In this document: positions 2,991 through 33,104 of the stretch, in pieces
Layout of the letters: the number at the start of each line of letters is the position of its first letter
Position numbering within the stretch: position 1 is the first letter of the stretch
Assembly (NCBI GenBank): GCA_031255285.1
Contig: JAIRSU010000033.1
Location: 1 to 36,880 of the forward strand
Length of the DNA: 36,880 nucleotides
Reading direction: 5' to 3'
From: Treponema sp.
GTDB taxonomy: Bacteria > Spirochaetota > Spirochaetia > Treponematales > Breznakiellaceae
Made by a program: the position numbers and the translations under genes
The notes under the pieces: model-generated
The model's input: only the letters and a program-made list of their open reading frames with translations
Database searches by the model: none
Told to the model about the DNA's origin: nothing

Positions 2991-3409
2991 TTTAACAAGT
3001 CGGTCCGCAGGGCGTGTATTTCCCATCGACGCCGCTTCATGCGCAGGTTCACGAAACACTCCAAACGGTTCTTCACAGCAGGTTTGCTTCTATCAGCCGT
3101 GCAGTGTTCACCGCAATACAACACGTTGCCGCTTGCTCCGCCGCGCTCGGCTCGCCCTCTATCCAGTATGCGCGCGTCTCTTTCTCCTTCATCGGTGTAA
3201 AAGGATAGCTGACCCTGCAAGTCTCTTTATCCACAGAATATCGAAATCCAAAATCAGGAGCAGGCGGCTTCGGCGGGTCCACCGTATAGGGATAGCCTAC
3301 CCATGAGTACTTTCCTGATACTTCGCATAAAACTTCCCTAACTTGACCGCTGCGGTCTCTCCGTTAGACTTGACGTGTGGAGCCACCTTTCTACAGCTTA
3401 ACCGCGTCA

Positions 3410-3470
3410 GGTATTCTCCGAGAGTAGTTGGGTATTCTCAAAGAGTAGTCCGGGTACGCTCGGAGCATAT
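3410..3470. repeat. Degenerate 20-21 bp tandem repeats
   Basis: Two clear units begin GGTATTCTC and end GAGTAGT (3410-3430 and 3431-3450), followed by a decayed third unit from about 3452. The period is close to seven codons. On the minus strand the units would encode heptapeptides of the TTLGEYP type at the front of the relic gene. Confidence 0.6.
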
Positions 3471-3542
3471 AAGACATGGTAAAGCAAGCCGGCAGGCAGG
3501 AAATAGCGATGGTTACGACGAAACAAGGAAGACCCAGCTGTT

Positions 3543-5186
3543 CTAAATCTTGAGTCGTTCCATGTGATGGTAGGCTTCGGCGCGTAGTTCTTTGACCGAC
3601 TCGTCCTTTAAGTAGTCGTCAAAGGGCGTCATGCGGTCGATGAGCTTGCCGGAACCAGGAAGAATCTCTACGACCCGGGACGCTAGAGAATTGACGAACT
3701 CGTGGTCGTGTGAGTTAAACAGGACGACGCCTGTGAAGGCGCAGAGACCGTCGTTCAGCGCAGTGATAGCTTCAAGGTCAAGGTGATTAGTCGGCTCGTC
3801 CAGAATCAGCACGTTCGCGCCGGAAAGCATCATTTTGGCAAGCATACAGCGTACCTTTTCACCGCCGGAAAGTACGTTCACCGGCTTCAGCGCCTCATCT
3901 CCAGAGAAAAGCATACGCCCCAAAAAACTCCGTACATACGTCTCGTCTTGGTCAGGTGAAAACTGTTTGAGCCAGTCGGTGATTGAAAGGTCAGAATCAA
4001 AGAACGGAGAATTTTCCTTGGGGAAATATGAGACCGAAGTTGTCTGTCCCCAGTAATAACCCCCGGTATCTGCCTTCTGGACCTCCGCAATAATGTCGAA
4101 AAGCGCGGTTTTGGCATTGTGTTCCTGTCCCACAAAGGCGATTTTATCATATTTGTTGACGATAAGACTGAAATTGTCCAGAATCGGTTCTCCATCCATG
4201 GATCTAACGCTCAGTTTTTCTATGCGGAGAACATTATTACCAATGTCGCGCTCTGGTTTGAACCCGACAAAGGGAAACTTACGGCTCGTTACCGGCAGAT
4301 TGTCAAGATCGAGCTTCTCCAATACCTTTTTTCTGCTGGTCGCCTGCCTGCTTTTCGCGGCGTTTGATGCGAAACGGGCGATGAATTCTTTCAATTCACG
4401 GGCTTTTTCCTCGTTTTTCTTCTGTTGTTCCCGCGCCTGTTTTTGTAGAATGCGGCTCATCTGGAACCAGAAGTCGTAGTTGCCTGCATAAAGGGTGATT
4501 CTGCCAAAGTCTATGTCCGCGATGTGTGTACAAACGCTGTTGAGAAAGTGACGGTCATGGCTCACTACGATGACGGTGTTGGGAAAGTCAATCAGAAAAT
4601 CTTCGAGCCAAGAGATGGATTCCAAATCGAGTCCATTTGTTGGTTCATCAAGCAGGAGGATATCCGGACTGCCGAAAAGCGCCTGGGCAAGCAGGACGCG
4701 CACTTTCTTTGTCTCGTCAATGTCGTACATCATCTTGGAATGATCTGTTTCGTCCAGTCCCAGTCCGGAAAGCAGTCTGCTTGCCTCGGATTCAGCTTCA
4801 TATCCGCCGAGTTCCCCGAATTCGGTTTCTAGTTCAGCGGAACGTATGCCGTCCGCATCTGAAAAGTCTTCTTTCGCATATATAGCATCCCGTTCCCGCG
4901 CTACCGCATAGAGTCTGGGATAACCCATAATCACCGTATCAATCACCGAATGCCGCTCGAAGGCAAAGTGGTCCTGACGAAGAACCGCGACCCTTTCTCC
5001 CGTGCTTATCGTTATTTCGCCTTTATCATATTCTATTTCACCAGACAATATCTTCAGAAAAGTTGATTTCCCGGCGCCATTTGCCCCGATGACTCCGTAG
5101 CAGTTGCCGGGGGTGAACTTCAAATTCACGTCTTTGAAAAGTGTGCGCTCGCCATAGCTCAAGCGCATATCTGTAATTGTTATCAT
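3543..5186 (-). CDS. ABC-F family ATPase (YbiT/YkpA type)
   Basis: A 547-residue protein with two ABC ATPase domains joined by a charged linker (about 245-300) and no membrane segments, as in ABC-F proteins that act on ribosomes. Domain 1 has a normal Walker A GANGAGKST (34-42) and Walker B LLLDEPTNGLD, but its signature is replaced by YDIDETKKVRVLLAQ (about 154-168). Domain 2 has an intact LSGGEKVR (439-446) and DEPTNHLD, but its Walker A reads GQEHNAKT (353-360), with alanine for the last glycine. I recall similar AKT variants in the YkpA/YbiT branch, so this is probably family-typical. It is divergently transcribed from the pst operon from a promoter whose -10 box ends 6 nt before the ATG. 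Whether it is a resistance factor or a housekeeping translation factor cannot be told. Confidence 0.88.
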   Translation of the reverse strand: MITITDMRLSYGERTLFKDVNLKFTPGNCYGVIGANGAGKSTFLKILSGEIEYDKGEITISTGERVAVLRQDHFAFERHSVIDTVIMGYPRLYAVARERDAIYAKEDFSDADGIRSAELETEFGELGGYEAESEASRLLSGLGLDETDHSKMMYDIDETKKVRVLLAQALFGSPDILLLDEPTNGLDLESISWLEDFLIDFPNTVIVVSHDRHFLNSVCTHIADIDFGRITLYAGNYDFWFQMSRILQKQAREQQKKNEEKARELKEFIARFASNAAKSRQATSRKKVLEKLDLDNLPVTSRKFPFVGFKPERDIGNNVLRIEKLSVRSMDGEPILDNFSLIVNKYDKIAFVGQEHNAKTALFDIIAEVQKADTGGYYWGQTTSVSYFPKENSPFFDSDLSITDWLKQFSPDQDETYVRSFLGRMLFSGDEALKPVNVLSGGEKVRCMLAKMMLSGANVLILDEPTNHLDLEAITALNDGLCAFTGVVLFNSHDHEFVNSLASRVVEILPGSGKLIDRMTPFDDYLKDESVKELRAEAYHHMERLKI

Positions 5187-26268: not shown

Positions 26269-27171
26269 CTATCTACTCTCCGTCATCCGCTCCAAGTATT
26301 TCAGGGCTATCTCGTCGTGCGGGTCAATTTCAAGAACAACATGGAAGAAACCGGATGCTTCTTCACGATTGTCGGATTTCAAAGCAAGGATACCGAGATT
26401 CGAGATGATTTTAACATTTTCCGGGTCTTCAGAAAGAGCTTTTTCGAGTTCTCTACGCGACTGTTTCAAGTCGCCGATTTCCATGAGGCAGATGGCGAGT
26501 TCATTGTGGACGTCTTTGTTATCGCCGCCGAGTTCTATAGCTTTTCTGAAAGCCGCGGTTCCGTCCTCCCATCGTTTCAGTTTCCGTAACGCCCACCCAA
26601 GCAGAAACCATACCTGCCACATCTGAGGTTCCTGCTCAATGAGCCTCTGTATTTTGGGGAGCGCCTCCCCGTCTCTGTCATTAAGGACGTCATTGTAAGC
26701 ATCCGCATAGATTGTTTCAAAAGGCGTATCTTTTTGCCTCAAATTTTCAAGCAATTCTGCATGAGACGGCGTTCTTTCCTGTCTTTTGAGAATCGAGGCT
26801 TTGAGTTCATAGATACCTTCGTTCTCTGGAGACAGTCCTATGAGCGCATCAATAATTTCCAACGCGAGCTCGAAACAACCTTCATCCGCTTTGGCGTACG
26901 AGGCGTTTGCCAGTTCATTGATAATATTGGGACGAATTTTGAGCACGAGCCGTCGATAATAATCCGCGTACTCATGTTCAGCATTTTCTGCAAGTAGATG
27001 GAGCATACCGGACAAGAACATCTCTTCAGTCAAGGCTTCGGTATTAAGTCTCTCGGACGGCGCTTCCACAGGAATAGGGATGTCCGCCTGAAGATATTCG
27101 CTCAGACGAGGGTGACTGTACACAAGGGCCGCAGGGAGCTTCACAAAAACTATACTGCTGCTATTTGGCAT
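26269..27171 (-). CDS. TPR-repeat protein of the PilZ operon
   Basis: A 300-residue soluble protein. The first 90 residues have no repeat character; from about 90 onward there are about five to six tetratricopeptide units, for example around WQVWFLLGWALRKLKRWEDG, NKDVHNELAICLMEIGD and NVKIISNLGILALKSD. TPR arrays bind other proteins. The start overlaps the 3' end of the PilZ gene by 11 bp, so the two are probably translated together and may act together in cyclic-di-GMP-linked control. No signal peptide or membrane segment is seen, so it should be cytoplasmic. Confidence 0.8.
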   Translation of the reverse strand: MPNSSSIVFVKLPAALVYSHPRLSEYLQADIPIPVEAPSERLNTEALTEEMFLSGMLHLLAENAEHEYADYYRRLVLKIRPNIINELANASYAKADEGCFELALEIIDALIGLSPENEGIYELKASILKRQERTPSHAELLENLRQKDTPFETIYADAYNDVLNDRDGEALPKIQRLIEQEPQMWQVWFLLGWALRKLKRWEDGTAAFRKAIELGGDNKDVHNELAICLMEIGDLKQSRRELEKALSEDPENVKIISNLGILALKSDNREEASGFFHVVLEIDPHDEIALKYLERMTESR

Positions 27172-27985
27172 CGGGATCCGGCACTTCCAGATGTACCATT
27201 TCTAGGTATTCATTGATTCGTATCTTGTACCCTATAGGGACAAGGTCTTCAACAAACTGTATACCGAGAGCCACCAAGTCTTTTCTGCCTTCCACCATTT
27301 CTGAACGGACGAATCTTCCTCGTATTAGGAAACTCTCCCGCGGCTCGTCAAAATCAACACGCAGGGCGATATCCTTGTTTACCAGAAACTTCGCCACACC
27401 CATCATAATAAGTTTCGCCCCGGAAAAAGAAACGTCCCGCAAGATACAATGCCTTGGCACACTTTCAATGAAAACTGCACACTCCCTGGGCAATACATGC
27501 ATCTTACGCTGACTATCCTGGGTTATGATGATACGGTTCTCTTTTCGCTTTGCAAAGTTGAAATTAGCGTCTAGTATCCGTCCCATTATCCCAATCAAGT
27601 CGTCGGGCGGACGCTGGGTAAACTGGATAGTGAATATCGCCACATCGTCCGCCTTTCCGTAAGGAGCATATCCTAGGGACCGAGATGTCACAAAGAAAAT
27701 AACGGGATTGTTTCCATCAGGACTCTTGAAGCAGAACCTCAGACTCACCGAGTTATTTGCAGCCTCCAGCTTCGCGATAAGATTCGTCTTTGTATTAGCA
27801 ATTATCTTGGCGCCTTGAAAAGAGGCTGAATAGATAATACAGGGCCAGAGATCTCCTCCACACTTCAGATAAATCTCTTGGGTTATGAGTCCGGTAACTT
27901 GGATGATGTCTTTGGTAAAGGTAACATCTATATCCTTGAACCTGTCATAAAAACTACTTGTTTTTTGCGCTGTCATTATAGCCAT
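27161..27985 (-). CDS. PilZ-domain protein with a YcgR-like N-terminal domain
   Basis: A 274-residue protein. The C-terminal half is a PilZ domain with both cyclic-di-GMP-binding motifs intact: RKENR at 147-151 (RxxxR) and DVSFSG at 184-189 (DxSxxG). The N-terminal half (about 15-140) is a beta-rich region of the YcgR/PilZ-N kind. Such two-domain proteins usually adjust motility or surface behaviour in response to cyclic-di-GMP; spirochaetes carry them and swim by periplasmic flagella. It heads an operon with a TPR protein, rsmG and a sugar kinase. The promoter's -10 box ends 8 nt before the ATG at 27985, with no ribosome-binding site, so the mRNA looks leaderless. A second in-frame ATG lies three codons later. 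Confidence 0.85.
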   Translation of the reverse strand: MAIMTAQKTSSFYDRFKDIDVTFTKDIIQVTGLITQEIYLKCGGDLWPCIIYSASFQGAKIIANTKTNLIAKLEAANNSVSLRFCFKSPDGNNPVIFFVTSRSLGYAPYGKADDVAIFTIQFTQRPPDDLIGIMGRILDANFNFAKRKENRIIITQDSQRKMHVLPRECAVFIESVPRHCILRDVSFSGAKLIMMGVAKFLVNKDIALRVDFDEPRESFLIRGRFVRSEMVEGRKDLVALGIQFVEDLVPIGYKIRINEYLEMVHLEVPDPDAK

Positions 27986-28973: not shown

Positions 28974-30929
28974 ATGAAAAATAAAGAAATCATTGTTCTG
29001 TTGTTAATAAGCTGTCCTCTTTTTGCTCAGTCGCCATCCTTGCTCTACGAACAGGGGCGCTCTTTTATGGTTCAGGAGGACTGGTATTCGGCGTCTGAAG
29101 CCTTGCTGGAAAGTCTGCGCCTCAACCCTAGCCATGCAGAGGCGGCGGCCGCTCTTGCAGAATGTTACTATGCCTTGGAGGAGTTTGACGAGGCGCTTGT
29201 TTGGGTGAAAAAAGCGCGCGTCCTTGCCCGCGGCAATATCGGACTCGCTAATCTTGAAGCCTTCATCCTCATCTCTCAAGGGCAGCTCGAAAAAGCCTCT
29301 GCGGTCGTCAATGAAACGCTTACCCGCGAGCCGTATAACAAGGAAGCTTTGTTCGCCGCATCCGAATTAGACATTGCGCGGGGGCGCGCCGGGGACGCGG
29401 TAAAACGCTACCAGGACGCGGTAAAACGCTACCCGGATGACAGGCGGCTGTTAGTGTCCCTTGCCCTGGTCCTCGGATCCCTTGGTAATGGAGAGCAAGC
29501 CCGCGTCTATATTGAGCGCGCTATACACCAGCACCCTGATGATTACCGCATCTATTACTACGCTGCTTACCTCGACGCGGAAGCGGGCAGTCTTGGTTCG
29601 GCTGTCAATTATGCGGAGAGGGCTCTCTTCTACAAACCCGATTTCCCGGACGCCCGCTCCCTGCTTGCTAATCTGCGCTATAGAACAAGCCAGTTTGCCG
29701 AGGCGGAGCGGCTTGCCGATGAAGCTATCATGTCTAATCAAAAGGACATAAACGCCCGTTATCTCAAGGGCATGGCTGTGCAGGAACTAGGCAGGCTGGC
29801 GGACGCCAGGGCTGTGTTCGCCAGCGCCTTGGCTATTGACCCGAATGATGAATTCACTCGTATTGCTCTGGAAAACCGCATCATAAAGGATACGAGCCTC
29901 GAAGATCCGCTGCGCACGCGATGGGCATCTTTTCATTTTGACCGCGCTCGCGCATACAGAAGGCAAAACCTTTCAGACCAGGCGCTTTTTGAATACCGCA
30001 GGGGTTTGAGAATCAATCCTTACGCGAGAGACCGCAAAGAGTATGCGGAAATTCTCAAGTTGCAGGGCTATCCTTCGCGCCATACAGAGGAATTGCGATT
30101 CATGCAGGAGATTGGTATTGCGGACAAAGGGGTAGACGATATTGTGGAAGCTTACAACGCGCTTCTCATGGACGCGCCTTTTAAGCAATGGGGGATAGAC
30201 CCGGCGGTTAGTGTGAAAAAACACTGGAACATGGCTGTCTTTTCTGTGGTTTCCCAGTCGAGCGTCTTTCATGCGGACGCGGGCGCGCTTGCTGCTTCTT
30301 ATATCAAGGATATTCTGGTTCACGACCGTAATATCGCGCCGCTGGAACTGGAGCTGAGACAGGCGTCTTTCTCCCAAGCTTTCCGCGAAGCGCGTACCGC
30401 AGGCGCTGATTATTTTCTGGTTGTGTCGGTGAACGAGAATCAGCGGGATATTTCCGTGAAGGGAGAGCTTTTCACGGCGCGCACAGGCGCGTCAGCGGGC
30501 GTCTTCTCAGCCTATCGTACAGGAGCGGACAGGCTGCGTAACGCATCTGTCGGGCTTGTGGATCGTGTGAGCGCATCTTTGCCCTTACGCGCCGAGTTAC
30601 TGCAATATAAACAGGGACAGGGACTCATCGACAAGGGTAAGGTGGACGGAGTGAAGCCGGACATGATATTTGATGTAGTACAGAAAGGGCATGCTGTCAT
30701 CAAGAATGACGGGGTTGGAGTGTCTTACTCGGCTGACGACGTAGTGGGCAAGCTGACTATCAATATGGTCGACGAAGAGGTCGCGGCTGGTTCTGTGGCC
30801 AGAAACGGCTTTTTCGACCGTATTGCTGTGGGAGATGAAATATTCCTTCACCCTGAGAAGTCCGAGTCTGAAGCCGGTGAAACGCTTGCCGACCCAGAAC
30901 TACGGTCCTTGTTACGAACCTTGCGGTAG
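28974..30929 (+). CDS. Periplasmic TPR protein
   Basis: A 651-residue exported protein: a short signal peptide (hydrophobic IIVLLLISCPLF, cleavage near FAQ), about ten TPR units over residues 20-330, and a C-terminal region (about 400-620) of mixed alpha/beta character. That region includes ADYFLVVSVNENQRDISVKG, which resembles FlgT- or LpoB-like outer-membrane assembly domains, followed by a small beta-barrel-like segment (KGKVDGVKPDMIFDVV). I recall similar TPR proteins conserved in treponemes. A role in envelope assembly is inferred. Within one TPR, a 21-bp tandem duplication (29394-29434) encodes DAVKRYQ then DAVKRYP. The promoter gives an almost leaderless message. The HD gene follows after 28 bp. 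Confidence 0.75.
   Translation: MKNKEIIVLLLISCPLFAQSPSLLYEQGRSFMVQEDWYSASEALLESLRLNPSHAEAAAALAECYYALEEFDEALVWVKKARVLARGNIGLANLEAFILISQGQLEKASAVVNETLTREPYNKEALFAASELDIARGRAGDAVKRYQDAVKRYPDDRRLLVSLALVLGSLGNGEQARVYIERAIHQHPDDYRIYYYAAYLDAEAGSLGSAVNYAERALFYKPDFPDARSLLANLRYRTSQFAEAERLADEAIMSNQKDINARYLKGMAVQELGRLADARAVFASALAIDPNDEFTRIALENRIIKDTSLEDPLRTRWASFHFDRARAYRRQNLSDQALFEYRRGLRINPYARDRKEYAEILKLQGYPSRHTEELRFMQEIGIADKGVDDIVEAYNALLMDAPFKQWGIDPAVSVKKHWNMAVFSVVSQSSVFHADAGALAASYIKDILVHDRNIAPLELELRQASFSQAFREARTAGADYFLVVSVNENQRDISVKGELFTARTGASAGVFSAYRTGADRLRNASVGLVDRVSASLPLRAELLQYKQGQGLIDKGKVDGVKPDMIFDVVQKGHAVIKNDGVGVSYSADDVVGKLTINMVDEEVAAGSVARNGFFDRIAVGDEIFLHPEKSESEAGETLADPELRSLLRTLR
29394..29434 (+). 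repeat. 21-bp tandem duplication inside the TPR gene
   Basis: GACGCGGTAAAACGCTACC occurs at 29394-29412 and again at 29415-29433, identical and 21 bp apart. It adds exactly seven residues (DAVKRY plus one) to a TPR helix and keeps the frame. Perfect identity suggests a recent replication-slippage event. Confidence 0.9.
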
Positions 30930-30957: not shown

Positions 30958-32238
30958 ATGAGGAATGACGTTATATCTGCTTTAACAGAGGGTTTCAGTT
31001 GCCCTATTCGAGACCCGCTGTGGGGGCACGTCTACCTTACTCCGCAATTGGAGGATATTGTCAAGTCTCCGCTGTTTATGCGCCTGCACCGCATCTCGCA
31101 GCTAGGGACTGTGTCTATCGTATATCCGGGAGCAACGCATACTCGCGCGGGTCATTCAATCGGAGTGTTTCATCTGGCGCACAGGCTTATACGATCGCTC
31201 GCGGAACGCGGCGCGGATATATGGCTTACCGGGGGTGGCGTCCGCTCTTTTCTTGCGGCGAGTCTTCTTCACGATATTGGACACTTCCCTTATACGCATT
31301 CGCTTAAGGAGTTACCGCTCGCGGCGCATGAGGAGCTTACCGGGCAGGCTGTTCTGGCTGAGCCGCTGAAAAGTCTTGTGGGGAAAAGCGGTGCAGATCC
31401 AGCGATGACCGCGGCTATCGTTGACATGAACTTTAAAACTACGGATGCAGAGACTTGCTTTTACCGTAAACTGCTCTCCGGAGCGCTTGACCCGGATAAG
31501 CTCGACTATCTGAATCGGGACGCGCGCTATGCAGGCGTCCCTTATGGCGCTCAAGACGTCGATTTTATCTTATCACGACTCGAACCTCACATAGAACGAG
31601 GCGTGGATATCGATTCCAAGGGTATTCCTAGTGTAGAAGCTCTTCTTTTCTCAAAATATCTTATGTACAGGACTGTTTATTGGCATAGGGATGTGCGTTC
31701 CGCAACTTGTATGATCAAGAAAGCGCTCATTGCCGGGCTCGAAAAGGGCGTCATCGCTAAAGAAGAACTCTATGGCTTGGATGACCAGGGGCTTTTCGCC
31801 TTGATGTCGAGCCGTTCTCATATTCTGCCGATTCTGTCGCTTGGAGAGCAGGTTAGAAATGGGCGTATCTACGAAGCTATAGCTGAATTCCCGCTTGACG
31901 AAACGGTGTATACCGAGTCCTACGCCGAACTTCTCGATATCAGCAAACGTTCTCTGGTCGAAGAGAAACTGGCGGAAAAGATCTCCATGCAGACCAAGAC
32001 GCCCTTTTCGAGAGACGACGTAATAGTCGATGTGCCAGAAGCAGTTTCTTTTGAGTCTAGTTTGTTCGTGTTGGACGAAGGCCGCGTCTTTTCAGAAAGC
32101 TCGGCCCTTTTCAAAGGAGAAATACTGAGGGCGTTCAGGAAAATCTTGAGAACAGCGCGTGTATTTGCCGCAAAAAAATATGATTCCTTTTCCAACCTCT
32201 TGCAATTTAGCAAAGATCTGATATACTCTCTATTATAG
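30958..32238 (+). CDS. HD-domain phosphohydrolase (dNTPase/SAMHD1-like)
   Basis: A 426-residue metal-dependent phosphohydrolase. The HD superfamily residues are His66 in TRAGHSIGVFHLA, His105-Asp106 in SLLHDIGHFPYTH, and the third-motif aspartate in LDPDKLDYLNRDARYAGVPYG (about 178-183). This arrangement matches the YwfO/SAMHD1-type deoxynucleotide triphosphohydrolase group rather than c-di-GMP phosphodiesterases of the HD-GYP type. I start at the ATG at 30958; the frame is open further up but there it overlaps the TPR gene in a frame of low coding character. Substrate unproven. It probably shares a transcript with the TPR gene. Confidence 0.85.
   Translation: MRNDVISALTEGFSCPIRDPLWGHVYLTPQLEDIVKSPLFMRLHRISQLGTVSIVYPGATHTRAGHSIGVFHLAHRLIRSLAERGADIWLTGGGVRSFLAASLLHDIGHFPYTHSLKELPLAAHEELTGQAVLAEPLKSLVGKSGADPAMTAAIVDMNFKTTDAETCFYRKLLSGALDPDKLDYLNRDARYAGVPYGAQDVDFILSRLEPHIERGVDIDSKGIPSVEALLFSKYLMYRTVYWHRDVRSATCMIKKALIAGLEKGVIAKEELYGLDDQGLFALMSSRSHILPILSLGEQVRNGRIYEAIAEFPLDETVYTESYAELLDISKRSLVEEKLAEKISMQTKTPFSRDDVIVDVPEAVSFESSLFVLDEGRVFSESSALFKGEILRAFRKILRTARVFAAKKYDSFSNLLQFSKDLIYSLL
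32200..32227 (+). promoter_or_regulatory. Candidate promoter for the ComFB-domain gene
   Basis: TTGCAA (32200-32205), 16-bp spacer, TATACT (32222-32227), inside the end of the HD gene. The leader of about 48 nt contains a strong GGAAGGAG ribosome-binding site. Confidence 0.5.
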
Positions 32239-32281: not shown

Positions 32282-32980
32282 GTGGAACTTCACAATACGA
32301 ACGAGGATATTGTTATATCTGAAGTAACCAATATTTTTAATTCTTTAGAAAGGAAGGAAAATCCAGAGAATATTTGTACGTGTGCACAATGCCGTATGGA
32401 CACAGCCTGTTATGTGCTTAACCGCATAAAACCGCATTACATTGTCTCCAATCGAGGCGTTGTCAGAATAGAGCAGGATGGTATAGAAAACCAGCAGAAA
32501 AAGGCAGACATTATTACTATAATTTATGAAGGTATTAAACAGATAAATAAGAATCGCCGTGTATATTCTCATGGTCTTGATATGGACGGCTCGTCTAATA
32601 TGGATAGACCTGTATTCAATATACCTACTATTGTTGGCTGTCTCTTTAATGGGGTAAATTTTACGCCGATGGAAGGTATAAAAATTGAATTGCACCGCAA
32701 TGAAGACCTTGTCACCATGATTGACAGTAACTGGCAAAACCCTTACCAGATTTTGCCTCAGAGAGAAGGGATGTTCACCTTTTGGCCCGCGCCGATTCAG
32801 GCTGAAAGTATTGATATATGCAGAGATTTCGAATTCTTAGTCAAAATCAAAGCGCCCGGTTTTGAGGAACTAAACCATCTTTTCAAGATTCCAGTAGTAA
32901 GCGAAGTACGAAACATCAGCGCCTTCTCAAGAGACAGAACATTCAAGCTTCCCGATCTCTACCTCTTTCCACCAGAATGA
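32282..32980 (+). CDS. ComFB-domain protein with a C-terminal beta-sandwich-like domain
   Basis: A 232-residue protein. Residues 1-95 match the late-competence ComFB family: HNTNEDIVISEV at the start, cysteines 32, 34 and 37 in CTCAQCRMDTACYVLNRIKP, then HYIVSNRG. ComFB proteins were recently described as cyclic-di-nucleotide receptors in cyanobacteria. Residues about 110-232 form a separate region with beta character (GCLFNGVNFTPMEGIKIEL, then GMFTFWP, ending PDLYLFPPE), like a transthyretin/carboxypeptidase-regulatory sandwich; I know no described ComFB fusion of this kind. GTG at 32282 is used because AAGGAG sits 6 nt before it. No signal peptide. It shares the neighbourhood with a PilZ protein, but on a different transcript. 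Confidence 0.75.
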   Translation: MELHNTNEDIVISEVTNIFNSLERKENPENICTCAQCRMDTACYVLNRIKPHYIVSNRGVVRIEQDGIENQQKKADIITIIYEGIKQINKNRRVYSHGLDMDGSSNMDRPVFNIPTIVGCLFNGVNFTPMEGIKIELHRNEDLVTMIDSNWQNPYQILPQREGMFTFWPAPIQAESIDICRDFEFLVKIKAPGFEELNHLFKIPVVSEVRNISAFSRDRTFKLPDLYLFPPE

Positions 32981-33029: not shown

Positions 33030-33102
33030 CGGGATGTAGCCTAGAGGCTAAGGCGTCTGCTTTGGGAGCAGAAGATCGGCGGTTCAAATCCGCCCATCCC
33101 GA
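33030..33102 (+). tRNA. tRNA-Pro(TGG)
   Basis: A 73-nt cloverleaf: acceptor CGGGATG/CATCCCG, D-stem GCCT/AGGC, anticodon stem TCTGC/GCAGA with loop TTTGGGA (anticodon TGG), variable loop AGATC, T-stem GGCGG/CCGCC with loop TTCAAAT, discriminator A. CCA is not encoded. The ogt ATG begins two bases after the discriminator. Confidence 0.96.
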
Positions 33103-33104
33103 CT

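Follow-up and report, generated by a model that had tools for sequence, protein, structure and literature searches.

In many lineages of the phylum Spirochaetota a known receptor family, ComFB, is found in a new architecture, in which the ComFB domain is followed by a beta-sandwich of predicted transthyretin-like fold. One such gene lies in the window, i.e., the whole 36,880-nucleotide stretch of DNA that was analysed. The most likely reading of its product, which we hold with moderate confidence, is a receptor of cyclic dinucleotides in which the sandwich serves to bind a partner.

Make-up of the fusion protein

The gene and its parts are as follows.

32282-32980, + strand: gene of the ComFB-transthyretin-like fusion, coding for 232 aa from a GTG, based on the open reading frame, a Shine-Dalgarno-like AAGGAG and full-length relatives
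32291-32554, + strand: ComFB domain (PF10719), residues 4-91, by Pfam and by structural matches to 4wai and 8hja
32561-32599, + strand: disordered linker, residues 94-106, with pLDDT below 50 in the AlphaFold2 model
32612-32977, + strand: transthyretin/CNA-B-like beta-sandwich, residues 111-232, by AlphaFold2 and PDB comparison
32729-32743, + strand: N150-W-Q-N-P154 loop, a candidate contact surface and one of the most conserved stretches of the sandwich

The AAGGAG motif stands just 5' of the GTG at 32282, and in nine other genomes of the genus the gene starts at the corresponding place, with ATG in seven and GTG in two. A promoter and terminator scan around the gene gave no more hits than shuffled sequences did, within their spread. 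The fusion gene and a gene for O6-methylguanine methyltransferase have a tRNA-Pro gene (TGG; 33030-33103, + strand) directly between them. According to Pfam, ComFB is the sole match of the protein (E 1.3e-21), with 76.9 bits against a cut-off of 25 (79.3 bits for the match in the own-genome search), and all 69 aligned family members match PF10719 as well (E up to 10, best 2.8e-22). ComFB is also the only NCBIfam match and is sub-threshold, the B. subtilis-type equivalog NF052654 scoring 32.2 bits against a curated cut-off of 120. The reading frame and the two-part make-up given in the preliminary description, a ComFB region followed by a beta-rich C-terminal half of about 120 residues, are thus borne out, with AlphaFold2 strands running from residue 110 to 228.

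The AlphaFold2 model of the whole protein (69 sequences) has a mean pLDDT of 83.8 and a pTM of 0.58, which is too low for the relative placement of the two domains to be reliable or used. As for the ComFB half, the predicted model of residues 1-99 matches ComFB of B. subtilis (4wai) with Z 9.6 over 85 residues (rmsd 3.3 A) and c-di-GMP-bound CdgR (8hja) with Z 9.3 over 87 residues (rmsd 4.3 A).

The C-terminal half had been called undescribed. This holds for families, none being reported by Pfam or NCBIfam at E up to 1, and does not hold for the predicted fold, which a fold search identifies as a transthyretin-like/CNA-B-like sandwich. The model of residues 103-232 matches 8qox, 8bdw, 5aq0, and 3qva (Z 9.5, 8.8, 8.7, and 8.4, respectively), and most of the matches listed are transthyretin-like or CNA-B-like chains, with Z of about 7.4 to 9.5 and rmsd mostly 2 to 3 A; Z near 8 can reflect a common arrangement, and here one fold class dominates the list and spans most of the domain. 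Modelled alone (10 sequences; pLDDT 81.8, pTM 0.75), the domain gives much the same structural matches. VIA-align compares only the top chains of Foldseek itself and is therefore a second look at these matches, not an independent search. The transthyretin-like/CNA-B domains 5aq0, 8bdw, and 3qva align over 81 to 89 residues at 2.2 to 2.8 A; unlike them, the sandwich is joined to a ComFB domain, in a protein with no signal peptide apparent by eye. The best Pfam match of the sandwich is CarboxypepD_reg, found in four of the 69 members at E 0.015 or weaker, and the window protein itself is not matched by PF13620 (carboxypeptidase regulatory-like). Within the N150-P154 loop, N153, P154, and W151 are kept in 93, 92, and 88 of the 93 fusions compared, respectively. 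Where at least 90% of the 93 fusions agree in the C-terminal part, the residues are Pro, Ile, Gly, Phe, Leu, Trp, Asn, and a single Asp; His, Arg, and Ser are absent from this set, and the protein ends in FKLPDLYLFPPE.

Distribution in Spirochaetota

A survey across spirochaetes, suggested by the preliminary description, reveals a fusion common to many lineages rather than a one-off. Within the genus, 10 of the 12 genomes encode the full-length protein; one of them is the window's own, and the other nine show 54-86% identity. At E 0.001 the full profile matches 169 of 195 genomes of the family, a count that includes weak matches resembling stand-alone ComFB (e.g., in G002 and G004). According to the C-terminal domain alone (E 0.01), 185 of 392 Spirochaetota genomes are positive; ComFB is found in 227 of the 392, and all 185 genomes with the C-terminal domain are among these. 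For 149 of the 150 listed C-terminal matches the open frame is at least 219 aa long, and for the remaining one it is 198 aa. The 150 listed ComFB matches divide into 105 with frames of at least 198 aa and 45 with frames of at most 180 aa. The 42 genomes with ComFB and no C-terminal match are represented by 12 that were inspected. Proteins of 224-235 aa in which both domains align, though the C-terminal match is sub-threshold, were found in G203, G237, G312, G330, and G356 (five of five); the f25 genomes G371, G410, G223, and G198 have short ComFBs only (86-109 aa), G222 and G532 have stand-alone ComFBs, and G197 has a fusion of another kind.

Scanning named genomes yielded 68 loci; most are from Treponema metagenome-assembled genomes, and Breznakiella homolactica (the genus Breznakiella belonging to the family Breznakiellaceae, order Treponematales) and Gracilinema caldarium are represented as well. 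The profile searches covered Spirochaetota; the named-genome scan used near-relative patterns and gave spirochaete records only. No match to the fusion was found at E 0.001 in either the plasmid or the phage collection. In one genome (G366:C1:2021080-2021355) the C-terminal match crosses several stop codons, and the fusion gene looks broken. Genome G250 and the f6 genomes G270, G295, G300, and G328 (1.0-1.5 Mb) are among the genomes listed as negative for ComFB, a pattern that would agree with gene loss during genome reduction.

Other ComFB proteins of the phylum differ in architecture. The window's own genome (79% complete) has no second copy of the C-terminal domain but does encode a further ComFB, a stand-alone protein of about 117 aa on a different contig (L002; G000:C23, 1465-1818), 97 nt downstream of an open reading frame that resembles a DnaB helicase, the sequence being judged by eye. 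Like the fusion, this protein has C-x-C-x-x-C, D, LN, P, Y, S, and G; unlike the fusion, it reads S-I-L-G in place of S-x-R-G and has no second domain. Yet another ComFB architecture is a 434-aa frame (L169; G197:C1, near 436741) in which ComFB is joined to a phosphate propanoyltransferase (PTAC, E 2.8e-76).

Conserved residues of the ComFB half

The residue groups discussed below are the following.

32375-32392, + strand: C32, C34, and C37, predicted zinc ligands, aligned with the B. subtilis ComFB zinc ligands C25, C27, and C30
32438-32458, + strand: Y53-x-x-S56-x-R58-G59, candidate ligand site, by conservation in fusions
32570-32572, + strand: H97, predicted fourth zinc ligand, by structure alignment end points and co-occurrence with the Cys triad

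The dimer interface of B. subtilis ComFB consists of N4, E7, D33, N40, and Y46, according to PMC4381287. Identical counterparts, N5 (assigned by spacing), E8, D40, N47, and Y53, are present in all 69 family members and, over the phylum, in 91 to 93 of 93 fusions, so that the protein probably forms a dimer via its ComFB halves, judging from the alignment. The positions invariant in all 93 fusions are N5, L46, N47, Y53, R58, G59, G119, and N153. B. subtilis ComFB (4wai) shares with the fusion the fold, the dimer-interface residues, and three of four zinc ligands; in contrast, its fourth ligand is Cys instead of His, it has no S-x-R-G motif, and it is a single domain. Synechocystis CdgR/ComFB (Slr1970, 8hja) shares the ComFB fold and D, Y, LNR, P, Y, S, and G of the central segment, whereas it has no Cys triad and its match spans only the ComFB half of the fusion.

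Three cysteines had been noted in the ComFB region; three do form C-x-C-x-x-C, and the region has four in total (C32, C34, C37, and C43). PMC4381287 also gives C25, C27, C30, and C88 as the B. subtilis zinc ligands, and in homologues the position of C88 is taken by either Cys or His. The alignment yields three Cys plus His, i.e., C32, C34, C37, and H97, a predicted metal site in which the placement of H97 against 4wai relies on the alignment end points only, model residue 98 falling on 4wai residue 89, beside the ligand C88. In 91 of 93 fusions the complete Cys triad goes together with a His or Cys within positions 93-102, either both being present or both being absent: 73 have both, one has the triad without His/Cys, one has His/Cys without the full triad, and 18 have neither. 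A plain Fisher value for this joint loss (5e-17) ignores descent, and no significance is claimed from it. The tree has at least four changes for the triad and at least five for the nearby His/Cys; since these changes are so few, the joint loss is suggestive and not proof, and independent pairs number two on supported branches and four on all, with which a sign test cannot reach 0.05. Five close relatives (L094, L095, L100, L103, and L108), which belong to the 18 fusions with neither, read S-x-N-x-x-C with no His near 97 and are natural forms without the predicted zinc site, usable for tests.

As for the central motif, Y53, R58, and G59 are each found in 93 of 93 fusions, S56 in 92, and Q72 in 91. 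Since this motif is nearly invariant and 19 of the 93 fusions have no full Cys triad, it is the motif, rather than the metal, that seems to be the constant working part, and the motif may be the ligand-binding site. R58 is absent from all 12 distinct stand-alone spirochaete ComFBs with the motif, which read Y-x-x-S-(L/I)-(L/I)-G; in this count L015 is the same gene as L002, and L174 to L178 (f25 short forms that align weakly and have no S-x-x-G) and L179 (no match) are left out. In Synechocystis CdgR the R58 position is Glu, the class-specific Arg belonging to the fusions, so the ligand of the fusion may differ.

Gene neighbourhood and proposed function

One gene directly upstream enters the argument.

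30958-32238, + strand: SAMHD1-like HD phosphohydrolase gene (PF19276, PF01966; probable ATG at 30958)

The HD query sequences began 15 codons before this ATG, at 30913, where there is no start codon. The best PDB matches of the HD protein are 2q14 (E 3.4e-34) and 2o6i (E 8.3e-30), with SAMHD1 at best E 1.1e-20, and by these sequence matches it groups with SAMHD1-like triphosphohydrolases. All 24 HD proteins that were aligned keep the HD-fold residues H120, D121, and D198 (counted from 30913). In 62 of 68 loci an HD gene precedes the fusion on the same strand at a median distance of 30 nt, the gap widening to about 1.4 kb in L087 and L093; the other six comprise L104, cut at a contig end, and L139 to L143, with no HD match. 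A PP-loop family gene stands between the two in L150 and L151, and an unnamed protein of about 150 aa in L152. Over the phylum, the HD protein (E 1e-40) is found in 106 of 392 genomes: 61 have HD and fusion, 45 HD only, and 124 fusion only, which points to an old linkage and not an obligate partnership. Both genes lie on the same strand within 2.2 kb in 56 of the 61; in 36 of these 56 at most 750 nt separate the HD match and the C-terminal domain, and in 20 there is room for one more gene. In the five unlinked genomes the genes are on different contigs (three), 0.6 Mb apart on opposite strands (one), or 14.7 kb apart (one).

No match to the HD protein was found near the six most distant loci examined (L159 to L163 and L165; about 10 kb each), and the neighbours tested differ among them, save a SpoU methylase adjoining the fusion in L160 and L161. 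In L163 a GAF-HD_5 gene (3407-4492; PF13487, E 1e-38) lies 142 nt upstream of the fusion on the same strand. HD_5 is the HD-GYP type known for c-di-GMP hydrolysis, and this single locus is no more than suggestive.

A PilZN3-PilZ protein with resemblance to PlzA, a receptor of c-di-GMP (E 1.1e-19, which is under the cut-off of NCBIfam), is encoded in the window at 27161-27985 on the - strand; its gene overlaps a TPR gene, with GidB and FGGY kinase genes next on the same strand. The preliminary description had pointed to the PilZ protein nearby in proposing that the fusion may be a second receptor. The PilZ gene lies 4.3 kb upstream of the fusion on the other strand. It is present in none of the 68 related loci, 53 of which hold at least 4.3 kb upstream (enough for its near end) and 49 at least 5.15 kb, and a functional link is rejected because the neighbourhood is not conserved.

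That ComFB proteins are receptors for cyclic dinucleotides, as stated in the preliminary description, is confirmed for c-di-AMP and c-di-GMP by PMC12313861, which reports KD values of 2.6 uM and 1.7 uM, respectively, for Synechocystis ComFB and a requirement for this protein in competence and pilus control. In Anabaena CdgR acts partly via DevH, according to PMC13075795. The window's own genome holds one GGDEF match and one DAC match, and may thus make both ligands. According to the receptor reading, the protein would be a soluble dimer that senses c-di-GMP, c-di-AMP, or both, its two ComFB domains pairing through the five interface counterparts. In this species a C3H zinc site would fix the end of the last helix, and the messenger would be bound around the S-x-R-G segment beside the dimer interface. 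A flexible linker would join the ComFB half to the sandwich, which has no strongly conserved catalytic-type His or Cys and would most likely contact a partner protein and so pass on the signal; the HD hydrolase would be the leading candidate where both genes are linked. The receptor reading is favoured because cyanobacterial ComFBs bind both messengers and the N-terminal half superposes on 8hja, because the dimer residues are conserved and both synthase types are in the genome, because the sandwich always comes with ComFB (185 of 185 genomes), and because of the gene upstream in L163. It is weakened by Glu in place of R58 in CdgR and by the B. subtilis comFB deletion, which leaves DNA uptake unaffected (PMC4381287), as well as by the lack of a gene that neighbours the fusion in all lineages examined and by the few tree changes behind the joint zinc-ligand loss, for which the pair test has no power.

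The main rival, which we consider rather unlikely, is that the ComFB half is a structural dimerisation unit only, nucleotide binding having been lost, and that the protein is a scaffold. The absence of the invariant R58 from CdgR and from the stand-alone spirochaete ComFBs agrees with it, as does the place of the dimer residues among the best conserved; however, R58, G59, and Q72 lie outside the five B. subtilis dimer contacts named above, and so something else keeps them. A further possibility, namely that the sandwich has an enzymatic activity, e.g., that of a hydroxyisourate hydrolase, which the ComFB half would gate, is very improbable. Hydroxyisourate hydrolases do have the same fold (3qva), but they carry a catalytic His/Arg/Ser set and a YRGS end, and the sandwich has neither matching conserved residues nor that end; membership in this enzyme group is rejected.

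Regulation of the upstream HD hydrolase is a narrower form of the receptor reading and not an exclusive alternative: the ComFB half would sense the messenger and the sandwich would bind and switch the triphosphohydrolase, linking the messenger to nucleotide pools. The close same-strand linkage and the invariant HD-fold residues speak for it; on the other hand, 45 of 106 HD genomes have no fusion, 124 of 185 fusion genomes have no HD protein at E 1e-40, and the PP-loop gene stands in between in two loci as in an ordinary operon, and we regard such control as unlikely. A still bolder version, in which the fusions are the spirochaetes' own receptor class with a specificity set by R58 and control a SAMHD1-like triphosphohydrolase in the class Spirochaetia, the messenger tuning nucleotide pools, is quite improbable.

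Cyclic dinucleotides matter for spirochaete motility and infection, and to our knowledge few of their receptors are established in spirochaetes. A search for ComFB together with Treponema or spirochete found no paper in the open library that it covered, subscription papers and preprints lying mostly outside its scope. The conserved two-domain candidate, with its marker residue and linked hydrolase, is a concrete protein to test, and the fusion would give the family of ComFB receptors, itself recognised only recently, a further architecture.
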